This document shows, piece by piece, positions 17,345 through 37,183 of a stretch of 37,183 nt of DNA. A program made the translations under genes and the position numbers. The notes under the pieces were generated by a model. That model did not search any database. It saw only the letters and a program-made list of their open reading frames with translations, and had not been told where the DNA came from. The stretch is from the NCBI GenBank assembly GCA_025457745.1, contig JALOTT010000008.1, positions 1 to 37,183 of the forward strand, written 5' to 3'. Positions within the stretch are counted from its first letter, which is position 1; every line of letters begins with the position of its first letter. Source of the stretch: Verrucomicrobiota bacterium. GTDB lineage: Bacteria > Verrucomicrobiota > Verrucomicrobiia > Limisphaerales > JADLHS01.

Positions 17345-18077
17345 AGCCGGTTTGAAAACTCCAACGACACTCCGCGTGACACGCGGCCTGCAGGAAACAG
17401 CCGGAATCGCCGTCCATTGTAGGCCCGATGCCCTCACCGGGCGGGTTTTCAAACAGGCGCTTAAATCCATTTGCCGCAACGCCGCAATTTTGGGCGCGCT
17501 GTCGCTCGTCCTCGGCAGCGCCCGCGCCGGGGAGCCGGCCGCACCGCAAACCGCATTTCTGCCGCGCACATTTGACGCGGAGACCCGAAACGGGGAAATC
17601 GTCGGGTGGGAAGGACAGACGCGCCGCGTGTTCGTGACGCGCGGGACGAATGAATTCTTTTTCGTCGTCCCGCAACGCATGCGGGTGGAGGTCACCCCGG
17701 ACAAGGTGGCGCTGGTGTCGGGCGACGCCACTTATTTTCTTACGTTCCGCATTCTCAGCCCGGGGAACGCGGACGCCGGTCGGGAATTCCTGGTGAACCA
17801 GTTTCCGAACGCGAAAGTTGTGGACGAGTTTTCCCGGACCGCCGCCGGCCAAAACGGCCCCGCCCTCGAACTGCGATACCAGGCCGCGGGCGGAATGGAA
17901 CGGGCCGTCTGGGTGGCGCTGATCCCTTCGACCGCCGGCCTGTTGGAATTCTGCCTGAATGCCGACCCGCCGAAAGCCGCGGACGGCCAGTTGGCCTTCA
18001 ACTCACTCCTGCGCACCTTCCGCAGCAATGAGAACGGCAAGCTCGAAATCACCACCCGGGTTCTGGATCAATCCTGA
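17334..18077 (+). CDS. Hypothetical secreted protein, N-terminus carrying a repeat element
   Basis: Open frame from ATG 17334 (MSHLRAG...); hydrophobic AAILGALSLVLGSARAGEP follows the element. Start uncertain. Confidence 0.65.
   Translation, partial: SHLRAGLKTPTTLRVTRGLQETAGIAVHCRPDALTGRVFKQALKSICRNAAILGALSLVLGSARAGEPAAPQTAFLPRTFDAETRNGEIVGWEGQTRRVFVTRGTNEFFFVVPQRMRVEVTPDKVALVSGDATYFLTFRILSPGNADAGREFLVNQFPNAKVVDEFSRTAAGQNGPALELRYQAAGGMERAVWVALIPSTAGLLEFCLNADPPKAADGQLAFNSLLRTFRSNENGKLEITTRVLDQS
17346..17458. repeat. 113-bp palindromic element at the N-terminus of the 17334 ORF
   Basis: gccggtttgaaaac (17346-17359) and gttttcaaacaggc (17445-17458): 13 of 14 bp complementary termini. Confidence 0.65.
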
Positions 18078-18162
18078 GCCACCCGGCGCGCGGAATTTAT
18101 TCCGCGCGTTTCGACACCGGCTCGGTGCTCGCCGAATTAATTCCGCGCTTCTTGGGTTGCGG
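18073..18162. repeat. 90-bp direct repeat, copy 1
   Basis: cctgagccacccggcgcgcggaatttattccgcgcg...cttgggttgcgg; about 84 of 90 identical to 18341-18430. Confidence 0.85.
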
Positions 18163-18250: not shown

Positions 18251-18340
18251 AGCGCGCGGAGCTTTCCCTGAACCCGCCAACCCCTGCGCGCGAACTTTTG
18301 TTGCGCCGGCAGCAAAAGTTGGCATCCCCCGGCTCATGGT

Positions 18341-18430
18341 CCTGAGCCGCCCGGCGCGCGGAATTTATTCCGCGCGTTTCGACACCGGCTCGGTGCTCGC
18401 GGAATGAATTCCGCGTTCCTTGGGTTACGG
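18341..18430. repeat. 90-bp direct repeat, copy 2
   Basis: See 18073-18162; a third partial copy lies at about 32046-32078. Confidence 0.85.
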
Positions 18431-18681: not shown

Positions 18682-19758
18682 ATGGCCCTGCCTTTTTTTG
18701 ACAACAGTTCAAAGAAGAAGCGAGACCAGATGCTTGCCATTGATCTGGGTGGCCGCACGACCAAAGCGGTGCATTTGCAGCGCCGCGGCGATGGCTATGT
18801 CCTTGGCCGCTACGCGCTGCTGGACGCGCCGATTTACGAAAAGAACCTCTCGGTCGAGTTGCTCGGCGAACATCTCAAGGCCGTGAGCCAGGCGCTGGAG
18901 GCCCGGACCAAATTCGTCACTTTGGCGTTGGGCTGCGACGAATCCATTGTCCGTCACGCCGAAATGCCGCGCATGCCGGCGGAGGACATGCGGCTGGTGC
19001 TGAAGAACAATTCCAGGAATTATCTGCAACAGGACCTGTCCAATCACGTTTTTGATTGTTACATCATTCCTTCCGCGCAATTGCCCAAACCGGCCGATCC
19101 CGGCAAACCTCCCGCGGGTCCCCAAAAACAAAAAGTTCTAATCGCGGGCGCCAAGAAGCAGGTGGTTGACAATTTAGTGGCGGCGACCCGCAATGCCGGT
19201 TTGGTGGCCGACCACATCCTTCCCGGCCTCATCGGGCCGATCAATGCCTTTAAGCTGGCGGCGCCGGAGGTTTTCAGCGGTGAAATCGTGGCCTTGGTGG
19301 ACCTCGGGTTCAAACATTCGTCCATCAGCATAATGGCGGGAGGCGAGTTGATCTTGAGCCGCACGGTGGCCATTGGCGGCGACCGGTTGACCGCCGGGCT
19401 CGCCGAATCCATGAACATCAGCTACCCCGAAGCGGAAGGCATCAAGGTGGGCATGGCCCACGAAGTGCAGGCGGCGCTCGAATCCCTGCTGTCGCCGCTG
19501 GGCCGTGAATTGCGCGCCTCCATTGACTTTTTCGAGCATCAACAGGACCGGCCCGTCTCGCAGGTCTTCATCACGGGCGGGTCGGCGCGCTCGGAATTCA
19601 TCATGCAATCGCTGCAAAACGAAATGATGGTCGAGTGCAAGACCTGGAATCCGACGACGTTTCTGCGCCTGGAGCTGCCGCCGGCGCAGGCCGCGGAAAT
19701 CGAACAGGTCGCGCCGCAACTGACCGTGGCCATCGGCGCGGCGCTGACCGCTTTCTGA
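18682..19758 (+). CDS. pilM: Type IV pilus assembly protein PilM-like ATPase
   Basis: QMLAIDLGGRTTKAVHLQRRGDGYVLGRYALLDAP...; actin-like phosphate motif; VDLGFKHSSISIMAGGELILSRTVAIGGDRLT; followed by PilN/O/P/Q-like genes. Confidence 0.88.
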   Translation: MALPFFDNSSKKKRDQMLAIDLGGRTTKAVHLQRRGDGYVLGRYALLDAPIYEKNLSVELLGEHLKAVSQALEARTKFVTLALGCDESIVRHAEMPRMPAEDMRLVLKNNSRNYLQQDLSNHVFDCYIIPSAQLPKPADPGKPPAGPQKQKVLIAGAKKQVVDNLVAATRNAGLVADHILPGLIGPINAFKLAAPEVFSGEIVALVDLGFKHSSISIMAGGELILSRTVAIGGDRLTAGLAESMNISYPEAEGIKVGMAHEVQAALESLLSPLGRELRASIDFFEHQQDRPVSQVFITGGSARSEFIMQSLQNEMMVECKTWNPTTFLRLELPPAQAAEIEQVAPQLTVAIGAALTAF

Positions 19759-19771
19759 TTTTTTTCAACCT

Positions 19772-20446
19772 GTGTTCATTCACCTCAATCTGCTCGCAGA
19801 AGCCCAAGCCGCCGAAGAGTTGCGCCGCCGCGACCCGGTCAAGCGCGCCCTGTGGCTGGCGGGGCTGCTGGTTTCGGTGATGCTGGTGTGGAGCAGTTCG
19901 CTGCAGGTCAAAACCATGCTGGTCCAACGGGACCTCAGCCGGGTGGAAAACAAGATTGGCAGCCGCACCAACGAGTACCAGCAAGTGCTCGACTTTCAGA
20001 AGAAAACCGCCGACATCGAAATGAAGCTGGGCGCGCTCCATCAACTGGCCACCAACCGCTTTCTCAACGGCACGCTGCTCAACGCGCTGCAGCAAACGAC
20101 CGTCGAGAACGTGCAGTTGTTGCGGCTCCGGGCGGATCAGTCCTACCTGATCACCGAGGAAGTCAAGGCGAAGAAGACCGAGTCCGGACGCACGTTTCCC
20201 GCCCGGCCCGCGACCGCGACCGAGAAGATTGTGCTGACGCTGGAAGCCAAAGACACCGCGCCCAATCCCGGCGACCAGGTCAATCGCTTCAAAGAAATGA
20301 TTGCCGATCATGCTTATTTTCAAAACGCGCTGGGCAAGACCAACGAAGTGAAACTGACCACCCTCTCGCCCCCGCAAAGCCAGCCCGACGGCAGAGCTTT
20401 CGTTCAATTCACGCTGGAATGTCGCTACCCGGAGAAAACCCGATGA
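19772..20446 (+). CDS. PilN-like protein
   Basis: GTG start; FIHLNLLAEAQAAEELRRRDPVKRALWLAGLLVSVMLVWSSSLQ: single TM segment then coiled coil; position after pilM. Confidence 0.75.
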   Translation: MFIHLNLLAEAQAAEELRRRDPVKRALWLAGLLVSVMLVWSSSLQVKTMLVQRDLSRVENKIGSRTNEYQQVLDFQKKTADIEMKLGALHQLATNRFLNGTLLNALQQTTVENVQLLRLRADQSYLITEEVKAKKTESGRTFPARPATATEKIVLTLEAKDTAPNPGDQVNRFKEMIADHAYFQNALGKTNEVKLTTLSPPQSQPDGRAFVQFTLECRYPEKTR

Positions 20447-20477
20447 CCGCTTATCAAACAATGCCGCGGTCCATGAT

Positions 20478-20641
20478 CCTCCGGGTAGGGCGGGCAGTCC
20501 CCTGCCCGCCGCGAAGGTGGAAGGATGTGCTGCTGCTGCCGGACGGCGCGCACCTGCCGCGACGGTGCGCGAGCACGGCGGGCGGAGTGACGCGCCCCGC
20601 CTCGGCCCGGAAGCCAACCCTGGAGGATTTACGCGGATGAA
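20478..20641. repeat. Pil-operon leader repeat, copy 1 (spans the RBS and start codon of the PilO-like gene)
   Basis: Aligns without gaps to 21286-21449, about 16 mismatches in 164 by hand count; ends ...ggaggatttacgcggatgaa. Confidence 0.88.
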
Positions 20642-21224
20642 CTTCAGCAAGCTGCCAAAGAACAAACGCAACCAGCTCATCATGGTCGCCTTGCTGACGG
20701 TGATCGCCTTGGGCGGGCTGGGATTTGGCCTCATCAAATGGCAGTACGCCAATCTGCGTGAACTCGCCGGGAAGCGGGAAGTCGCGGAAAAGAAATTCGC
20801 CCGGGTGACGGATACGATCAATCGCGCCGACCAGATCGAGACCGGCTTCAACGCTAAAAACAAGGCGCTGGTCGAACAGGAAGACGCCATGGCTTCCGGG
20901 GATATCTATTCCTGGGCGGTCAACTCGCTCCGGCGCTTCAAGCTGTCCTATAAGGTTGAAATTCCGCAGATCAGCCAGCCCGCGCCGCCGGGCGACGTGA
21001 ACCTGCTGCCGAAATTCCCGTACAAGCAAGTGACCTTCAGGGCGGGTGGAACGGCCTATTTCCACGATTTCGGCAAATTCATCGCCGACTTTGAAAATCA
21101 GTCCCCCCATGTCCGCGTGTTGAACCTGGTCCTCGAACCGTCCCCCAGTGTGGGCGCGGGCGAAAAAGAAAAACTCGCCTTCCAGATGGACATCGTCACT
21201 CTGGTGAAACCCGACGCCCCCTGA
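20637..21224 (+). CDS. PilO-like protein
   Basis: MNFSKLPKNKRNQLIMVALLTVIALGGLGFGLIKWQYANLRELAGKREVAEKKF; ATG at 20637 with ggagg upstream; the longer ORF start at 20517 lies in the repeat. Confidence 0.78.
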   Translation: MNFSKLPKNKRNQLIMVALLTVIALGGLGFGLIKWQYANLRELAGKREVAEKKFARVTDTINRADQIETGFNAKNKALVEQEDAMASGDIYSWAVNSLRRFKLSYKVEIPQISQPAPPGDVNLLPKFPYKQVTFRAGGTAYFHDFGKFIADFENQSPHVRVLNLVLEPSPSVGAGEKEKLAFQMDIVTLVKPDAP

Positions 21225-21285
21225 TGGACGGCAACTCCATGCCCATGTTTATGACCGCGTCTCAAACTATCTTCCTGCCCCTGAA

Positions 21286-21449
21286 CCTCCGGGTAGGGCG
21301 GGCAGTCCTCTGCCCGCCGCGAAGGTGGAAGGATGTGCTGCTGCTCCGGGCCGGCGCGCACCTGCCGCTACGGTGCGCGAGCACGGCGGGCGGAGTGTCG
21401 CGCCCGACCCCGGCACGGAGGATGCCACTGGAGGATTTACGCGGATGAA
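21286..21449. repeat. Pil-operon leader repeat, copy 2 (spans the RBS and start codon of the PilP-like gene)
   Basis: See 20478-20641; start codons of the two downstream genes lie at the same offset (159 bp) in both copies. Confidence 0.88.
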
Positions 21450-21939
21450 ACTGCGCTTCCAGATCCGCCGGCGGGGGGCCACGCTGCTCCTGGCGGCGCT
21501 GTTGGGTCGGGCCGCGGTTCACGCCGGTCCACCCCAACCCGCCGCGCCAGCCAAAGCCCCGGCCCCAGCCGCCGTGTCCCTGACGAATGGGGTGATGGAA
21601 GTTCCGCCGTCCGTCTTTGTGGTTGCCTCCGCGACCCAGGCGGTCAGAGACCCGTTTTTCCCGAATTCCACGCGGCTGGCCGCGGCGATGATGACGACCA
21701 GCACCAATGTGACCGGGGCGGCGGTCAGCGACCTGGCGCTCAAAGGCCTTTCCGGCACTGCCGCCCGGCCCCTGGCCACCATCAACAACCGCATTCTCGA
21801 GCCGGGCGAGGAGCAGGAAATCGTCACCTCCGCCGGCAAGGTCCGGGTACGCTGTGTGGCAATCAATTTGAAAGACGAAAGCGTGGTCATCGAAGCCGGC
21901 GGGACCCGACGCGAGCTGCGCTTCCCGCGGCGAAAATAG
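21445..21939 (+). CDS. PilP-like periplasmic protein
   Basis: MKLRFQIRRRGATLLLAALLGRAAVHAG signal; position between PilO-like and secretin. Confidence 0.6.
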   Translation: MKLRFQIRRRGATLLLAALLGRAAVHAGPPQPAAPAKAPAPAAVSLTNGVMEVPPSVFVVASATQAVRDPFFPNSTRLAAAMMTTSTNVTGAAVSDLALKGLSGTAARPLATINNRILEPGEEQEIVTSAGKVRVRCVAINLKDESVVIEAGGTRRELRFPRRK

Positions 21940-22232: not shown

Positions 22233-23900
22233 ATGAAACCAACACTTCGCATCGCCACCCTCATCGGCCTCTTCGTTTGCAGTCTGGGCCGCGCCCAAAC
22301 CCCTGCCGCCAGCGACTCGCCGGCCACCGCGCCCACGCCGCCCATTGCGGCGGCGCCCGCGACTGAACCGGCGGCCGCACCGCCGGACGCCGCGCCGGCC
22401 ATTGCTGCGCCGGCCACCGCCGAACCAGCCACCGCCGCGCCGTCCGCCGTCATCCCGCTTATCCAGTTTCAAGACGTGGCGCTCACGACCGCCATCGAAA
22501 ACCTCGCGCGCCAGGCGGGACTCAATTACATCCTCGACCCCAAGGTCACATTTGGCCAGCCCGGCCCGGATGGCAAAGCGACCCCGCAGCCGAACATCAA
22601 CCTGCGCTGGGAAAGTCTCACCGCCGAGCAGGCCCTCATGGCCCTGTTGACCGTTTACAACCTGCAACTGGTGGAGGACCCCAAGACCAGGGTCGCCCGC
22701 ATCACCACCAAGGACCCGGCCGCGCCTGACCCGCTGGTCACCAGGGTCATCCAGCTCCAATACGCCGGTCCGAGCAACATCCTCTCCAGTGTCCAGAGCA
22801 CGCTCACCGACAAACGCAGCAAAGTGGTCGCGGATGTTCGCACCAGCCAGTTGGTCATTGTGGCGACGGAAAAGGAACTGGCCGGGGTGGAAGAATTGTT
22901 GAAGCAACTCGACACGCCCACCAAGCAGGTGCTCATCGAGGCGAAAATCCTCGAAACCACCGTGAATCCCAAGACGGTCAAAGGCATTGATTGGACCAGC
23001 ACTTTGAGCAAGCAGAACGTCACCTTTGGCAATGGCATCACCAGTGGCAAGACCACCACGCTGCTTCCGGGCACGCCGGTCACCACCACGCTGCCCGGCG
23101 GCAGAACCATCACCACCACCCCGGGTTCCAGCTCGCAGACCTCGTTGGAAACCTTGCTGGGCGGCGGCGGAGTCAGCTACAATACCCTCAAAGGCTTTCA
23201 TCCCGCAACGGCCTTCTTGAATGCCGATGGTTTGAATGTGGCGCTGTCCTTCCTGAATGGTTCCGACGACACCAAAGTGATCTCCGAGCCGCGGATGGTC
23301 ACACTGGATAATCAGAGAGCTACGATTGATGTCGGCTTCATGTATCCAATCGTGAATGTGCAGGCGTCCACCGCGAATACGACCGGCGGTTCCCAGATTT
23401 CGTACTCGAACTTGACGGTGAATCTGGATGTCACGCCCCGCATTACTGCCAACAACTTCATCGAAATGCGAGTCCTGCAGAGCGTGCTTAGGCTTGGCGC
23501 ACCCGTTCAAACCACCGTCGCAGGTGTTAAAAATGATGTTGACTCGTTCTTCACCCGCAAACTGGAAACCTCCGTGCTCATCCCCAGCGGCAACACGCTG
23601 GTGATGGGCGGCCTGATTTCTGACCAGTTGCTGAACTCCAACGTGAAAGTCCCGATCCTGGGTGACATTCCGATCTTGGGCTACGCCTTCCGCAAGGACA
23701 GCAAGGAACGCAACCGGCAGAATCTCATGATCTTCATCACCCCGACCATTGTTAAGGACACCGATTTTCAACCAACGCAATCAAAATTCCTGCAATCAAC
23801 CGGCAAGGAAGCCGCCCTTGAAGAATGGTCCGCCTGGGACAGCGGCAAGCCCCGCGACTGGAGCAAACCGAAAGGCACGACGAAAAATTCCCAACCGTAA
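22233..23900 (+). CDS. Secretin (PilQ/GspD family)
   Basis: FQDVALTTAIENLARQAGLNYILDP; VLIEAKILETT; VTPRITANNFIEMRVLQSVLRLG; SVLIPSGNTLVMGGLISDQ...VPILGDIPILGYAFRKDSKERNRQNLMIFITPTIV. Confidence 0.93.
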   Translation: MKPTLRIATLIGLFVCSLGRAQTPAASDSPATAPTPPIAAAPATEPAAAPPDAAPAIAAPATAEPATAAPSAVIPLIQFQDVALTTAIENLARQAGLNYILDPKVTFGQPGPDGKATPQPNINLRWESLTAEQALMALLTVYNLQLVEDPKTRVARITTKDPAAPDPLVTRVIQLQYAGPSNILSSVQSTLTDKRSKVVADVRTSQLVIVATEKELAGVEELLKQLDTPTKQVLIEAKILETTVNPKTVKGIDWTSTLSKQNVTFGNGITSGKTTTLLPGTPVTTTLPGGRTITTTPGSSSQTSLETLLGGGGVSYNTLKGFHPATAFLNADGLNVALSFLNGSDDTKVISEPRMVTLDNQRATIDVGFMYPIVNVQASTANTTGGSQISYSNLTVNLDVTPRITANNFIEMRVLQSVLRLGAPVQTTVAGVKNDVDSFFTRKLETSVLIPSGNTLVMGGLISDQLLNSNVKVPILGDIPILGYAFRKDSKERNRQNLMIFITPTIVKDTDFQPTQSKFLQSTGKEAALEEWSAWDSGKPRDWSKPKGTTKNSQP

Positions 23901-31970: not shown

Positions 31971-32139
31971 CTGCGGCTTCCGCCACGCGCCCGAGGATTT
32001 GGCCGCGTGAAAACATCTCTGAAACCAAGCGCGGGGGGTCGCCGAAGCGGAATAAATTCCGCGCTCCTTGGGTTGCGGCACCCGCCACGCTGCGCCTGGG
32101 CGTTGAATTCCGACGGCGAGGTTCCGGTTTAGCGGCAAT

Positions 32140-33633: not shown

Positions 33634-33732
33634 AACATCCCTTTCTTGCGCGCCCTTGCCGCTGGAGAGTAACTTCCCGGCATGACGCACGCGGACTTTG
33701 TCCACCTTCACCTGCACAGCGAGTACTCGTTG
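33634..33732 (+). repeat. 99-bp exact direct repeat, copy A (dnaE leader and first 17 codons)
   Basis: Identical by inspection to 34316-34414. Confidence 0.95.
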
Positions 33733-34315: not shown

Positions 34316-34414
34316 AACATCCCTTTCTTGCGCGCCCTTGCCGCTGGAGAGTAACTTCCCGGCATGACGCACGCGGACTTTGTCCACCTTCACCTGCACA
34401 GCGAGTACTCGTTG
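34316..34414 (+). repeat. 99-bp exact direct repeat, copy B
   Basis: See 33634-33732. Confidence 0.95.
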
Positions 34415-37183
34415 TCACCTGCACAGCGAGTACTCGTTGCTCGATGGCGCGTGCCGCGTGGACCGGCTGATGGACAAGGCGCATAAACTGAAGTTCCCCG
34501 CGCTGGCCATCACCGACCACGGCGCGATGCATGGAGTTGTTGATTTCTACAAGGCCGCGCAGGAGAAAGGCATCAAACCCATCATTGGATGCGAGGTCTA
34601 TGTCGCGCCGGGCAGCCGCCTCGAGAAGAAGACCACCAGTGGCGGTCGCGACGTGTATCACCATCTAGTCCTGCTGGCGAAGGACGAAGCGGGCTACAAA
34701 AATCTCATCAAGCTGGTCACGGCCGCGCACCTCGAGGGCTTTTACTACAAACCGCGCATAGACAAGGAACTGCTCGCCGCGCACAAGGAGGGGTTGCTGG
34801 CGCTTTCCGGCTGTCTCGCGAGCGAAATCCCGGAGTGGATACTGAAAGATCAGGTGACCAGGGCGCGCGACGCGGTGGACTGGTTCAAGCAAACGCTCGG
34901 CGCGGAGAACTTTTATCTCGAACTTCAAAACCACGGCGTCCCGGAGCAGGCCAAGGTCAACAAACACCTCGTCGCGTGGGCGAAGGAGTTTGGCCTGAAA
35001 CTGGTCGCGACCAACGACGTGCATTACGTCGAGAAGAGCCACTCGCACGCGCACGATTGCCTCGTGTGCATCGGCACGCAATCCATGTTGAGCGATCCCA
35101 AGCGCATGAGCGCCGGCTATGTGCCGGAGCAATTCTACCTGCGCTCCGCCGAGGAAATGAAAGCGCGCTTCACCGATGCGCCCGACGCGGTGAAGAACAC
35201 GTTGGAAGTGGCTGAAAAGTGCAACGTCGCGTTCGATTTCAAGACGCTGCACTACCCGGTGTTTCATCCGCCGGAGCATTTCACACGCGAGGGGTTCTTG
35301 CGGCAATGGTTGGCGGAGGGGTTGCGTCGCCGCTACACCATCCGGGCGAAGGCGGAAGGCAAGGAGTTCGTCGTCGAAGGCATTGATGATCCGACGCGGC
35401 TGCCGACATACCCCGTAGGACAGGCGTCGCGCCTGTCTCAAACTTCAAATCAAGAAAACGAAGACAGGCGCGACGCCTGTCCTACGCTGGACGACCCCGC
35501 CGTCACCACCGCCGTCAAAATCGTGATGGATCGCCTGAAGCACGAGCTCGCGGTCATTGAGAAAACCGGCTTTACCAGCTACTTCCTCATCGTTGGCGAT
35601 TTCATCCGCTACGGCCATGAGCACGGAATTGCCTGCGTGGCGCGCGGTAGCGCCGCCGGCTCGATTGTCACTTACCTGCTGGAAATCTCGAACGTGGACC
35701 CGATTCGCTACGGCCTGCTGTTCGAGCGTTTCCTGAATCCCGAACGTGTCAATCCACCCGACATTGACATTGATTTTGCCGACGACCGCCGCGCCGACGT
35801 GATCGAATACGTCCGCCAGAAATACGGCAAGGATTCCGTCGCGCAGATCATCACGTTCGGCACGATGGGCGCGAAGTCGGTGGTGCGCGATGTGGGCCGC
35901 GTGATGGGCTTGAGCTACGGGGAGTGCGACCGGCTGGCGAAAATGATTCCGTTCGACCTCAAGATGACGCTCGAAAAGGCGCTCAAACAATCGCCGGAAC
36001 TCAAGCAGGCTTACGAAAGCGAAGAGGCGACCCGCGAGTTGATTGACACCGCGTTCATTCTCGAAGACCTCACGCGCAACGCAAGCGTTCACGCGGCGGG
36101 CGTCGTCATCGGGCCGGAGCCGCTCGTGAATCTGCTCCCGCTCAAACAGGACGACAGCGGCACGCTTGTCACGCAATATGCGATGAATCCCGTCGGCGAT
36201 CTCGGCCTGTTGAAGATGGATTTCCTCGGACTGAAGACGCTCACCGTCATTCGGAACACCTGCGAAATGGTCAAGCGCAACCAGGGCATCGAAGTGCCGA
36301 TTGAGAGCCTGCCGCTAGATGACGCAAAGACTTATGACCTGCTGAACAAGGCCAACACGCTGGGCATTTTCCAGTTGGAATCCGGCGGGATGCGCGACCT
36401 GTGCCGCAAGTTTCAAATCAGTTCTGTCGAGCACATCACCGCGCTCGTGGCGCTCTATCGTCCCGGCCCGATGGAGTTGATCCCTGAATTTATCAGACGC
36501 CGGCACGGCGAGATCGAAATTAAGTACGAACATCCGTTGCTCGAACCCATCGCCAAGGAAACCTACGGCATCCTCATTTACCAGGAACAGGTGATGCAGG
36601 CCGCGCAGGTGCTGGCGGGCTACACGCTCGGCGGCGCGGATTTGCTGCGACGCGCGATGGGCAAGAAAAAAGTCGAGGAGATGCAGAAGCAGCGCGAAAT
36701 TTTCGTCAAGGGCTGCCACGAGCAGAACAACATCCCCAAAGCCAAGGCAAACCAGATTTTTGATTTGCTGGAAAAATTCGCGGGCTACGGCTTCAACAAA
36801 TCCCACGCCGCCGCGTATGCCATCGTCGCGTATCAGACCGCCTATCTGAAGGCGAATTATCCCGTGGAATTTTTCTGCGCGATGATGACCAACGACATGG
36901 GCGATACGGCCAAGCTCGCGCAGTTCATCGCCGAGGCGCGCGAGTTTGGCATCGAAGTCTTGCAACCGGACGTGAATGAGAGCCAAGTATTCTTCGCGCC
37001 AGCGGAACGGAAACCCATAGGCCGGGCGTCGCGCCTGTCTCAAACTTCAGATCAAAAAGATGGAGACAGGCGCGACGCCTGTCCTACGCAGGTGATCCGC
37101 TTCGGCCTCGCAGCCATCAAAGGCGTCGGCGAAATTGCTGTCCAGAACATCCTGAAAGCCCGGAACGAAAGCGGAAAATTCAA
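34380..37183 (+). CDS. dnaE: DNA polymerase III subunit alpha, 3'-partial; canonical ATG (34364) is frameshifted by the 25-bp duplication
   Basis: HLHSEYSLLDGACRVDRLMDKAHKLKFPALAITDHGAMHGVVDFYKAAQEKGIKPIIGCEVYVAP PHP domain; NPPDIDIDFADDRRADVIEYVRQKYGKDSVAQIITFGTMGAKSVVRDVGRVMG; LYRPGPMELIPEFIRRR; FAGYGFNKSHAAAYAIVAYQTAYLKANYPVEFF. Not in the ORF track because there is no stop. Start uncertain (TTG 34380 is the first in-frame option after the TGA at 34365). Confidence 0.9.
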   Translation, partial: MSTFTCTASTRCHLHSEYSLLDGACRVDRLMDKAHKLKFPALAITDHGAMHGVVDFYKAAQEKGIKPIIGCEVYVAPGSRLEKKTTSGGRDVYHHLVLLAKDEAGYKNLIKLVTAAHLEGFYYKPRIDKELLAAHKEGLLALSGCLASEIPEWILKDQVTRARDAVDWFKQTLGAENFYLELQNHGVPEQAKVNKHLVAWAKEFGLKLVATNDVHYVEKSHSHAHDCLVCIGTQSMLSDPKRMSAGYVPEQFYLRSAEEMKARFTDAPDAVKNTLEVAEKCNVAFDFKTLHYPVFHPPEHFTREGFLRQWLAEGLRRRYTIRAKAEGKEFVVEGIDDPTRLPTYPVGQASRLSQTSNQENEDRRDACPTLDDPAVTTAVKIVMDRLKHELAVIEKTGFTSYFLIVGDFIRYGHEHGIACVARGSAAGSIVTYLLEISNVDPIRYGLLFERFLNPERVNPPDIDIDFADDRRADVIEYVRQKYGKDSVAQIITFGTMGAKSVVRDVGRVMGLSYGECDRLAKMIPFDLKMTLEKALKQSPELKQAYESEEATRELIDTAFILEDLTRNASVHAAGVVIGPEPLVNLLPLKQDDSGTLVTQYAMNPVGDLGLLKMDFLGLKTLTVIRNTCEMVKRNQGIEVPIESLPLDDAKTYDLLNKANTLGIFQLESGGMRDLCRKFQISSVEHITALVALYRPGPMELIPEFIRRRHGEIEIKYEHPLLEPIAKETYGILIYQEQVMQAAQVLAGYTLGGADLLRRAMGKKKVEEMQKQREIFVKGCHEQNNIPKAKANQIFDLLEKFAGYGFNKSHAAAYAIVAYQTAYLKANYPVEFFCAMMTNDMGDTAKLAQFIAEAREFGIEVLQPDVNESQVFFAPAERKPIGRASRLSQTSDQKDGDRRDACPTQVIRFGLAAIKGVGEIAVQNILKARNESGKF
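34390..34439 (+). repeat. 25-bp tandem duplication (tcacctgcacagcgagtactcgttg x2) in the dnaE 5' end
   Basis: 34390-34414 and 34415-34439 are identical; 25 bp is not a multiple of 3. Confidence 0.95.
35415..35485. repeat. 71-bp palindromic element in frame inside dnaE, copy 1
   Basis: 24-bp perfect arms gtaggacaggcgtcgcgcctgtct / agacaggcgcgacgcctgtcctac, 23-nt loop; encodes VGQASRLSQTSNQENEDRRDACPT. Confidence 0.95.
37017..37087. repeat. 71-bp palindromic element in frame inside dnaE, copy 2
   Basis: Arms 37017-37040 and 37064-37087, 23-nt loop (caaacttcagatcaaaaagatgg); encodes IGRASRLSQTSDQKDGDRRDACPT in the same phase as copy 1. Confidence 0.95.

Follow-up and report, generated by a model that had tools for sequence, protein, structure and literature searches.

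Two consecutive genes of the pil operon in this Verrucomicrobiota bacterium are preceded by closely similar leaders, which raises the question of whether these leaders represent a mobile cassette that sets translation, a structured RNA element, or a local copy of an otherwise ordinary repeat. The window analyzed here is the whole stretch of 37,183 nucleotides of contig JALOTT010000008.1. Within it, the labels pilN-, pilO-, and pilP-like derive from gene position and alignment with relatives, and the gene order around the repeat pair is the same as in those relatives. The leaders were delimited by repeat search, base-by-base comparison, and frame and substitution analysis, and their cores by genome searches and a REP scan. 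The features are as follows:

18682-19758, forward strand: pilM (PF11104 PilM_2, E 1.3e-26).
19772-20446, forward strand: pilN-like gene, without Pfam match, assigned by its position and by tblastn against relatives; the TGA stop shares bases with the opening ATGA of leader copy 1.
20443-20641, forward strand: leader copy 1, at the pilN-pilO junction, with the frame 20443-20640.
20485-20600, forward strand: REPIN core of copy 1, comprising GTAG, a REP hairpin (20489-20510), a spacer, and an inverted long REP (about 20542-20600) whose outer CTAC tag has decayed.
20620-20641, forward strand: RBS end of copy 1, CTGGAGGATTTACGCGGATGAA, with the Shine-Dalgarno sequence GGAGGA at 20622-20627 and the pilO ATG at 20637; identical in both copies.
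20637-21224, forward strand: pilO-like gene, with a weak PF10741 match below the cut-off and 43-53% identity to the correspondingly placed genes of 11 family members.
21251-21449, forward strand: leader copy 2, at the pilO-pilP junction, with the frame 21251-21448.
21293-21408, forward strand: REPIN core of copy 2, with its hairpin at 21297-21318 and the same spacer as copy 1.
21428-21449, forward strand: RBS end of copy 2, with the pilP ATG at 21445; identical in both copies.
21445-21939, forward strand: pilP-like gene, without Pfam match, assigned from position and an MKLR.. start as in relatives.
22233-23900, forward strand: pilQ secretin (PF00263, E 2.4e-45).

The original prediction described a gapless repeat of 164 bp with about 90% identity, and the corresponding segments (20478-20641 and 21286-21449) agree at 148/164 positions (90.2%). 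This description is correct yet understated, as the similarity reaches further left, to 199 nt aligned without gaps at 86% identity and a spacing of 808. Beyond these limits the likeness ends sharply, with 6/40 matches to the left and 12/41 in the 41 nt to the right, which is the chance level; the similarity of the pair itself is far beyond chance. Base-by-base comparison also bore out that RBS, spacer, and start codon are duplicated 808 bp apart, both copies closing with the same 22 nt (22/22 identical) on the starts of pilO and pilP. The segments of copies 1 and 2 match at 31/42 positions in the left flank, 25/26 in the REP hairpin, 29/31 in the spacer, 54/59 in the inverted REP, 11/19 in the right flank, and 22/22 from the RBS to ATGAA, with 27 differences in total and a longest exact common run of 36 nt. 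Each copy starts with ATGA and ends with GGATGAA, so that ATGA bounds it at both ends, and each forms an exact 66-codon frame from ATG to TGA, a feature outside the original prediction. In copy 1 the opening ATGA contains the pilN stop and the closing ATG is the start of pilO, the start of pilP taking this place in copy 2. Judged from this comparison, homology of the two leaders spans exactly 199 nt and takes in the RBS and ATG.

The 116-nt core of each leader is a REPIN, i.e., a pair of GTAG-tagged REP palindromes inverted relative to each other, in which GTAG and a 9-bp stem closed by a loop of four bases are followed by a spacer and then by a longer inverted palindrome. At 20485-20510 and 21293-21318, GTAG together with GGCGGGCAG-TCCC-CTGCCCGCC forms a tagged short palindrome of the GTAG REP type. 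The left GTAG is intact, and the right CTAC tag now reads CCGC in copy 1 and CGAC in copy 2; the loss of these right outer tags is consistent with decayed REPIN members. REPINs are REP doublets that form hairpins (Bertels and Rainey, PMC3116915), and, like the pil core, they consist of two inverted REPs around a spacer, measure about 70-110 nt, and occur in hundreds of dispersed copies. Unlike the REPINs in that study, the pil pair encloses an entire gene, its two members have a common RBS and start codon, and no cognate RAYT was found nearby. Head-head dimers of GTAG REPs are known in the verrucomicrobium Opitutus terrae (Di Nocera et al., PMC3733652), and that paper describes features seen in the pil type as well, including the GTAG tag, stems of 6-9 bp, outward-tagged dimers, and positions both between tandem genes and inside genes. 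This likeness is one of description rather than of published consensus sequence, and a 199-nt leader pair is not described in the accessible text of that paper.

The left-end hairpin had been proposed to be common to other genomic repeats, and indeed GGCGGGCAGTCCCCTGCCCGCC, present at 20489-20510 and 21297-21318, is found at hundreds of other sites. A degenerate pattern for the REP motif gave 365 matches in the present assembly vs. 0 for the reversed control, and counts within the bacterial family range from 0 to 201 per genome. The core is a member of a dispersed repeat family of mobile type. Its arrangement was surveyed with a simple codon-based gene finder in a 418-kb sample of contigs picked for holding REPs, so the frequencies are not genome averages. 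In this sample 65 REP clusters were detected, including 42 plain outward-tagged (+-) doublets and 15 singlets; the common doublet type is mostly 67-77 nt long, and doublets with one long arm measure 100-116 nt. The clusters lie between tandem genes (28), inside genes (20), between divergent (8) or convergent (6) genes, and at contig edges (3), with median distances of 141 nt to a start and 47 nt to a stop.

These placements bear directly on the proposal of a mobile or gene-converted 5' UTR cassette. On the sampled contigs the REPIN cores lie between genes or, often, within them and show no tie to starts; the original prediction had named random placement relative to start codons elsewhere as a refutation, and for the core this outcome was observed. 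The complete unit is present only twice in the genome, the dispersed part being the REPIN core alone, and the left flank and spacer were found only in the pil pair. Among 320 genomes of the order, including the present one, the RBS end CTGGAGGATTTACGCGGATGA has exact matches only at the two pil sites, with near matches (1-3 mismatches) scattered; because exact copies are limited to these two sites, the RBS end is not part of the mobile family. Of the cassette proposal, the dispersed, mobile-type hairpin and the common descent of the leaders, including RBS and start codon, are therefore retained, but mobility of the whole unit is not, as there are only two copies. A start-codon-associated mobile cassette was rejected, since sampled REPINs are not at starts and the RBS end is unique to the pair, and the leader appears to be a local copy made once in the present genome rather than a general regulatory cassette.

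About 20 of the 65 sampled clusters lie in frame within protein genes, where conserved enzymes gain from them peptides such as GRAGSPLPAA...DGAHGVTRPT or VGRVTPCAP...RRARSDAPY. The enzymes include UvrA (L198 6493-9528, two inserts), FeoB (L207 3906-6284, two inserts), protoporphyrinogen oxidase (L218 445-1908), LeuRS (L189 6779-9454), TrpE (L181 260-1837), and others. Double REP inserts in uvrA are likewise described for O. terrae (PMC3733652). A second REP family, GTAGGACAGGCGTCGCGCCTGTC, forms two inverted doublets (35415-35485 and 37017-37087) within one long open frame at 34437-37181 of the window. The start of this frame, MTHADFVHLHLHSEYSL, presumably resembles DNA polymerase III alpha. 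In a relative, three matches to the 116-nt core (L036 and L057; G004:C4 at 85572, 87065, and 88558) are spaced exactly 1493 bp apart, which suggests a tandem array of a 1.5-kb unit.

Ten PF01797 matches were detected in the present draft assembly, none of them flanked by the pil-type REP, and no RAYT adjoining this REP type was found in the present genome or in five relatives. Some PF01797 genes are flanked by other REP types (GGAG-CGCGGAA and GTAG-GCCGGGT). At L126 and L120, Y1 (RAYT-like) transposase genes lie amid many copies of one tagged hairpin, GTAG-GCCGGGTG and GGAG-CGCGGAA, respectively, which suggests several REP/RAYT pairs in the present genome. The window also contains a 91-nt repeat (18072-18162 vs. 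18340-18430, 93% alike, and also 32047-32078) built on GCGCGGAATTTATTCCGCGCG; its CGCGGAA palindrome, there bearing a GGAG tag, also flanks the Y1-transposase gene in L120.

pilN and pilO adjoin in 20 relatives belonging to the same family and order, with an ATGA overlap in 11, the pilN stop and pilO ATG within a few bases in 6/20, and the pilO ATG no more than about 15 nt from the end of the pilN alignment in 3/20. None of these 20 carries an insert between pilN and pilO, and the 18 relatives with the pilO-pilP region in view have a short spacer there and no insert. Because neither junction holds an insert in the relatives, the leaders are additions in the lineage of the present genome; the family search with pilO returned no second genome of the same genus.

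Based on these observations, the pair probably arose when a REPIN-bearing leader formed before one pil gene and a copy then reached the next start codon, joined at ATGA microhomology, and it would persist as a nearly harmless insert. An ATGA overlap tied the ancestral pilO start to the pilN stop, and the insert supplies its own GGAGGA and a stop-free frame again ending on ATGA. Under this scheme a REPIN embedded in about 80 nt of leader, ending in a strong Shine-Dalgarno sequence and a start codon, would have arisen once, and the whole segment would have been copied to the neighboring start codon by local recombination or template switch via ATGA(A) microhomology. Joining of an ATGACC...GGATGAA segment into an ATGAA site in this way would give exactly the observed product, which may have persisted through doing little harm. 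A single origin for the whole 199 nt is indicated because the spacer, the left flank, and the RBS are common to both copies. REPs reiterated locally together with flanking DNA are reported in PMC3116915 and PMC3733652. When REPIN flanks were compared, the pil pair ranked second of 2862, the remaining top-ranked pairs being on a single REP-array contig, and contig C202 has other local REPIN copies with common flanks; duplication with flanks is rare, yet not unique in the present genome. Three points count against this origin: no RAYT was found next to a pil-type REP, divergence is uneven (core 92-96%, flanks 58-74%, RBS 100%), and the search turned up no genome bearing just one leader, so that the direction and mechanism of copying are inferred. 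Because one neutral duplication cannot explain the uneven divergence, either gene conversion of the core or selection has to be invoked in addition.

Other origins account for parts of this pattern. Two independent REPIN insertions, with similar flanks and RBS by convergence or chance, would agree with a core more alike than the flanks and with the two REPINs on contig C500, which have a common spacer and not common flanks; but the left flank and RBS of the pil pair beat all 20000 random comparisons, a flank test that largely refutes this origin and makes it highly improbable. The C500 REPINs themselves (L213, 1482-1588 and 2501-2608) are long-arm elements about 1 kb apart and, unlike the pil pair, are a local REPIN copy without flanking DNA. 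Also very unlikely is a self-contained miniature transposon, about 190 nt long, that entered ATGA sites twice, duplicated 4 bp of target each time, and carried the REPs as internal passengers. ATGA does flank both copies, and a 6-bp terminal inverted repeat (CCGCGT/ACGCGG) lies just inside it in copy 2, with 5/6 positions in copy 1, but this repeat is too short to convince, only two copies exist in 4.37 Mb, 808 bp apart at the same tetranucleotide, and relatives have nothing comparable. An artefact of this draft metagenome-type assembly (567 contigs, 6.3% contamination) might be suspected, the more so as the window holds an exact repeat elsewhere. A collapsed or misassembled repeat, the refutation that had been named beforehand, is nevertheless extremely improbable in view of the 27 differences, the 36-nt longest run, and the gene order of the relatives, evidence drawn from the assembled sequence. 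The exact repeat (33634-33732 vs. 34316-34414) is 99 nt long, lies over a gene start with its copies 682 bp apart, and has a 25-nt tandem copy directly after the second (34415-34439); either a duplication or an assembly error could account for it.

A functional reading is that the leader was selected for translational coupling: ribosomes ending pilN would restart on the overlapping ATGA, translate 65 codons across the REP hairpins, stop at the pilO ATGA, and expose a strong RBS, copy 2 serving pilP likewise. Both copies run open from ATGA to ATGA despite 27 substitutions, without gaps; the RBS end is fully conserved; its GGAGGA, nine bases before the ATG, is predicted to pair with the anti-SD more strongly than any other in the operon; and the SD is predicted to be paired in the isolated leaders. 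However, the frame has dN 0.156 and dS 0.145 (dN/dS about 1.1), with amino-acid changes as expected for random mutation, and it is open in 25% of shuffles and survives 46% of mutation simulations. Moreover, the opening ATGA of copy 2 lacks an SD and lies 26 nt past the pilO stop, and the SD partner differs between copies. Selection for coupling is a possible but unlikely reading; the chance that the ATGA-to-ATGA design is functional is small. The broader idea that an ATGA-ended REPIN leader is a portable insert, copied before successive operon genes with coupling kept and hence tolerated or selected in operons, is quite unlikely. A conserved small protein was rejected from the dN/dS ratio and from the lack of a call by the codon-based gene finder.

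The suggested role as an RNA element gained no support from folding. The predicted folds of the leaders are somewhat more stable than those of shuffled sequences (z -2.0 and -2.7), as palindromic repeats would give, but the copies have no common SD partner, and the pairing in copy 1 varies with the length folded; the same RBS-controlling structure in both, as a structured regulatory leader would have, was not found. A switch between CCUCC (20478-20482) and GGAGG was predicted when the copy 1 leader was folded alone, was lost with 100 nt of upstream sequence, and is absent in copy 2. A known RNA family was likewise rejected, the leader having no Rfam match up to E 1. In E. coli, REPs affecting translation must lie no more than 15 nt from the stop codon (Liang et al. 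2015, as cited in PMC12306157). Like those described there, the pil REP hairpins are downstream of a stop codon within the transcript, but the REPINs begin 38 nt (copy 1) and 68 nt (copy 2) after it, beyond this distance. By analogy with the effects reported for intergenic REPs, the stem-loops may shield the mRNA upstream of them and adjust expression across the operon, with no dedicated switch.

The locus presents an ordinary, known element, the REPIN, in an unusual, locally duplicated setting. It illustrates how fixation of a dispersed palindromic repeat, along with a new ribosome-binding site, can take place between the tightly coupled genes of a conserved operon and be followed by local copying to the next gene. 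Were the ATGA-to-ATGA frame in use, this would account for the escape of such inserts from polar effects; otherwise, the pair is a clear case of REPIN-linked local duplication outside Proteobacteria.
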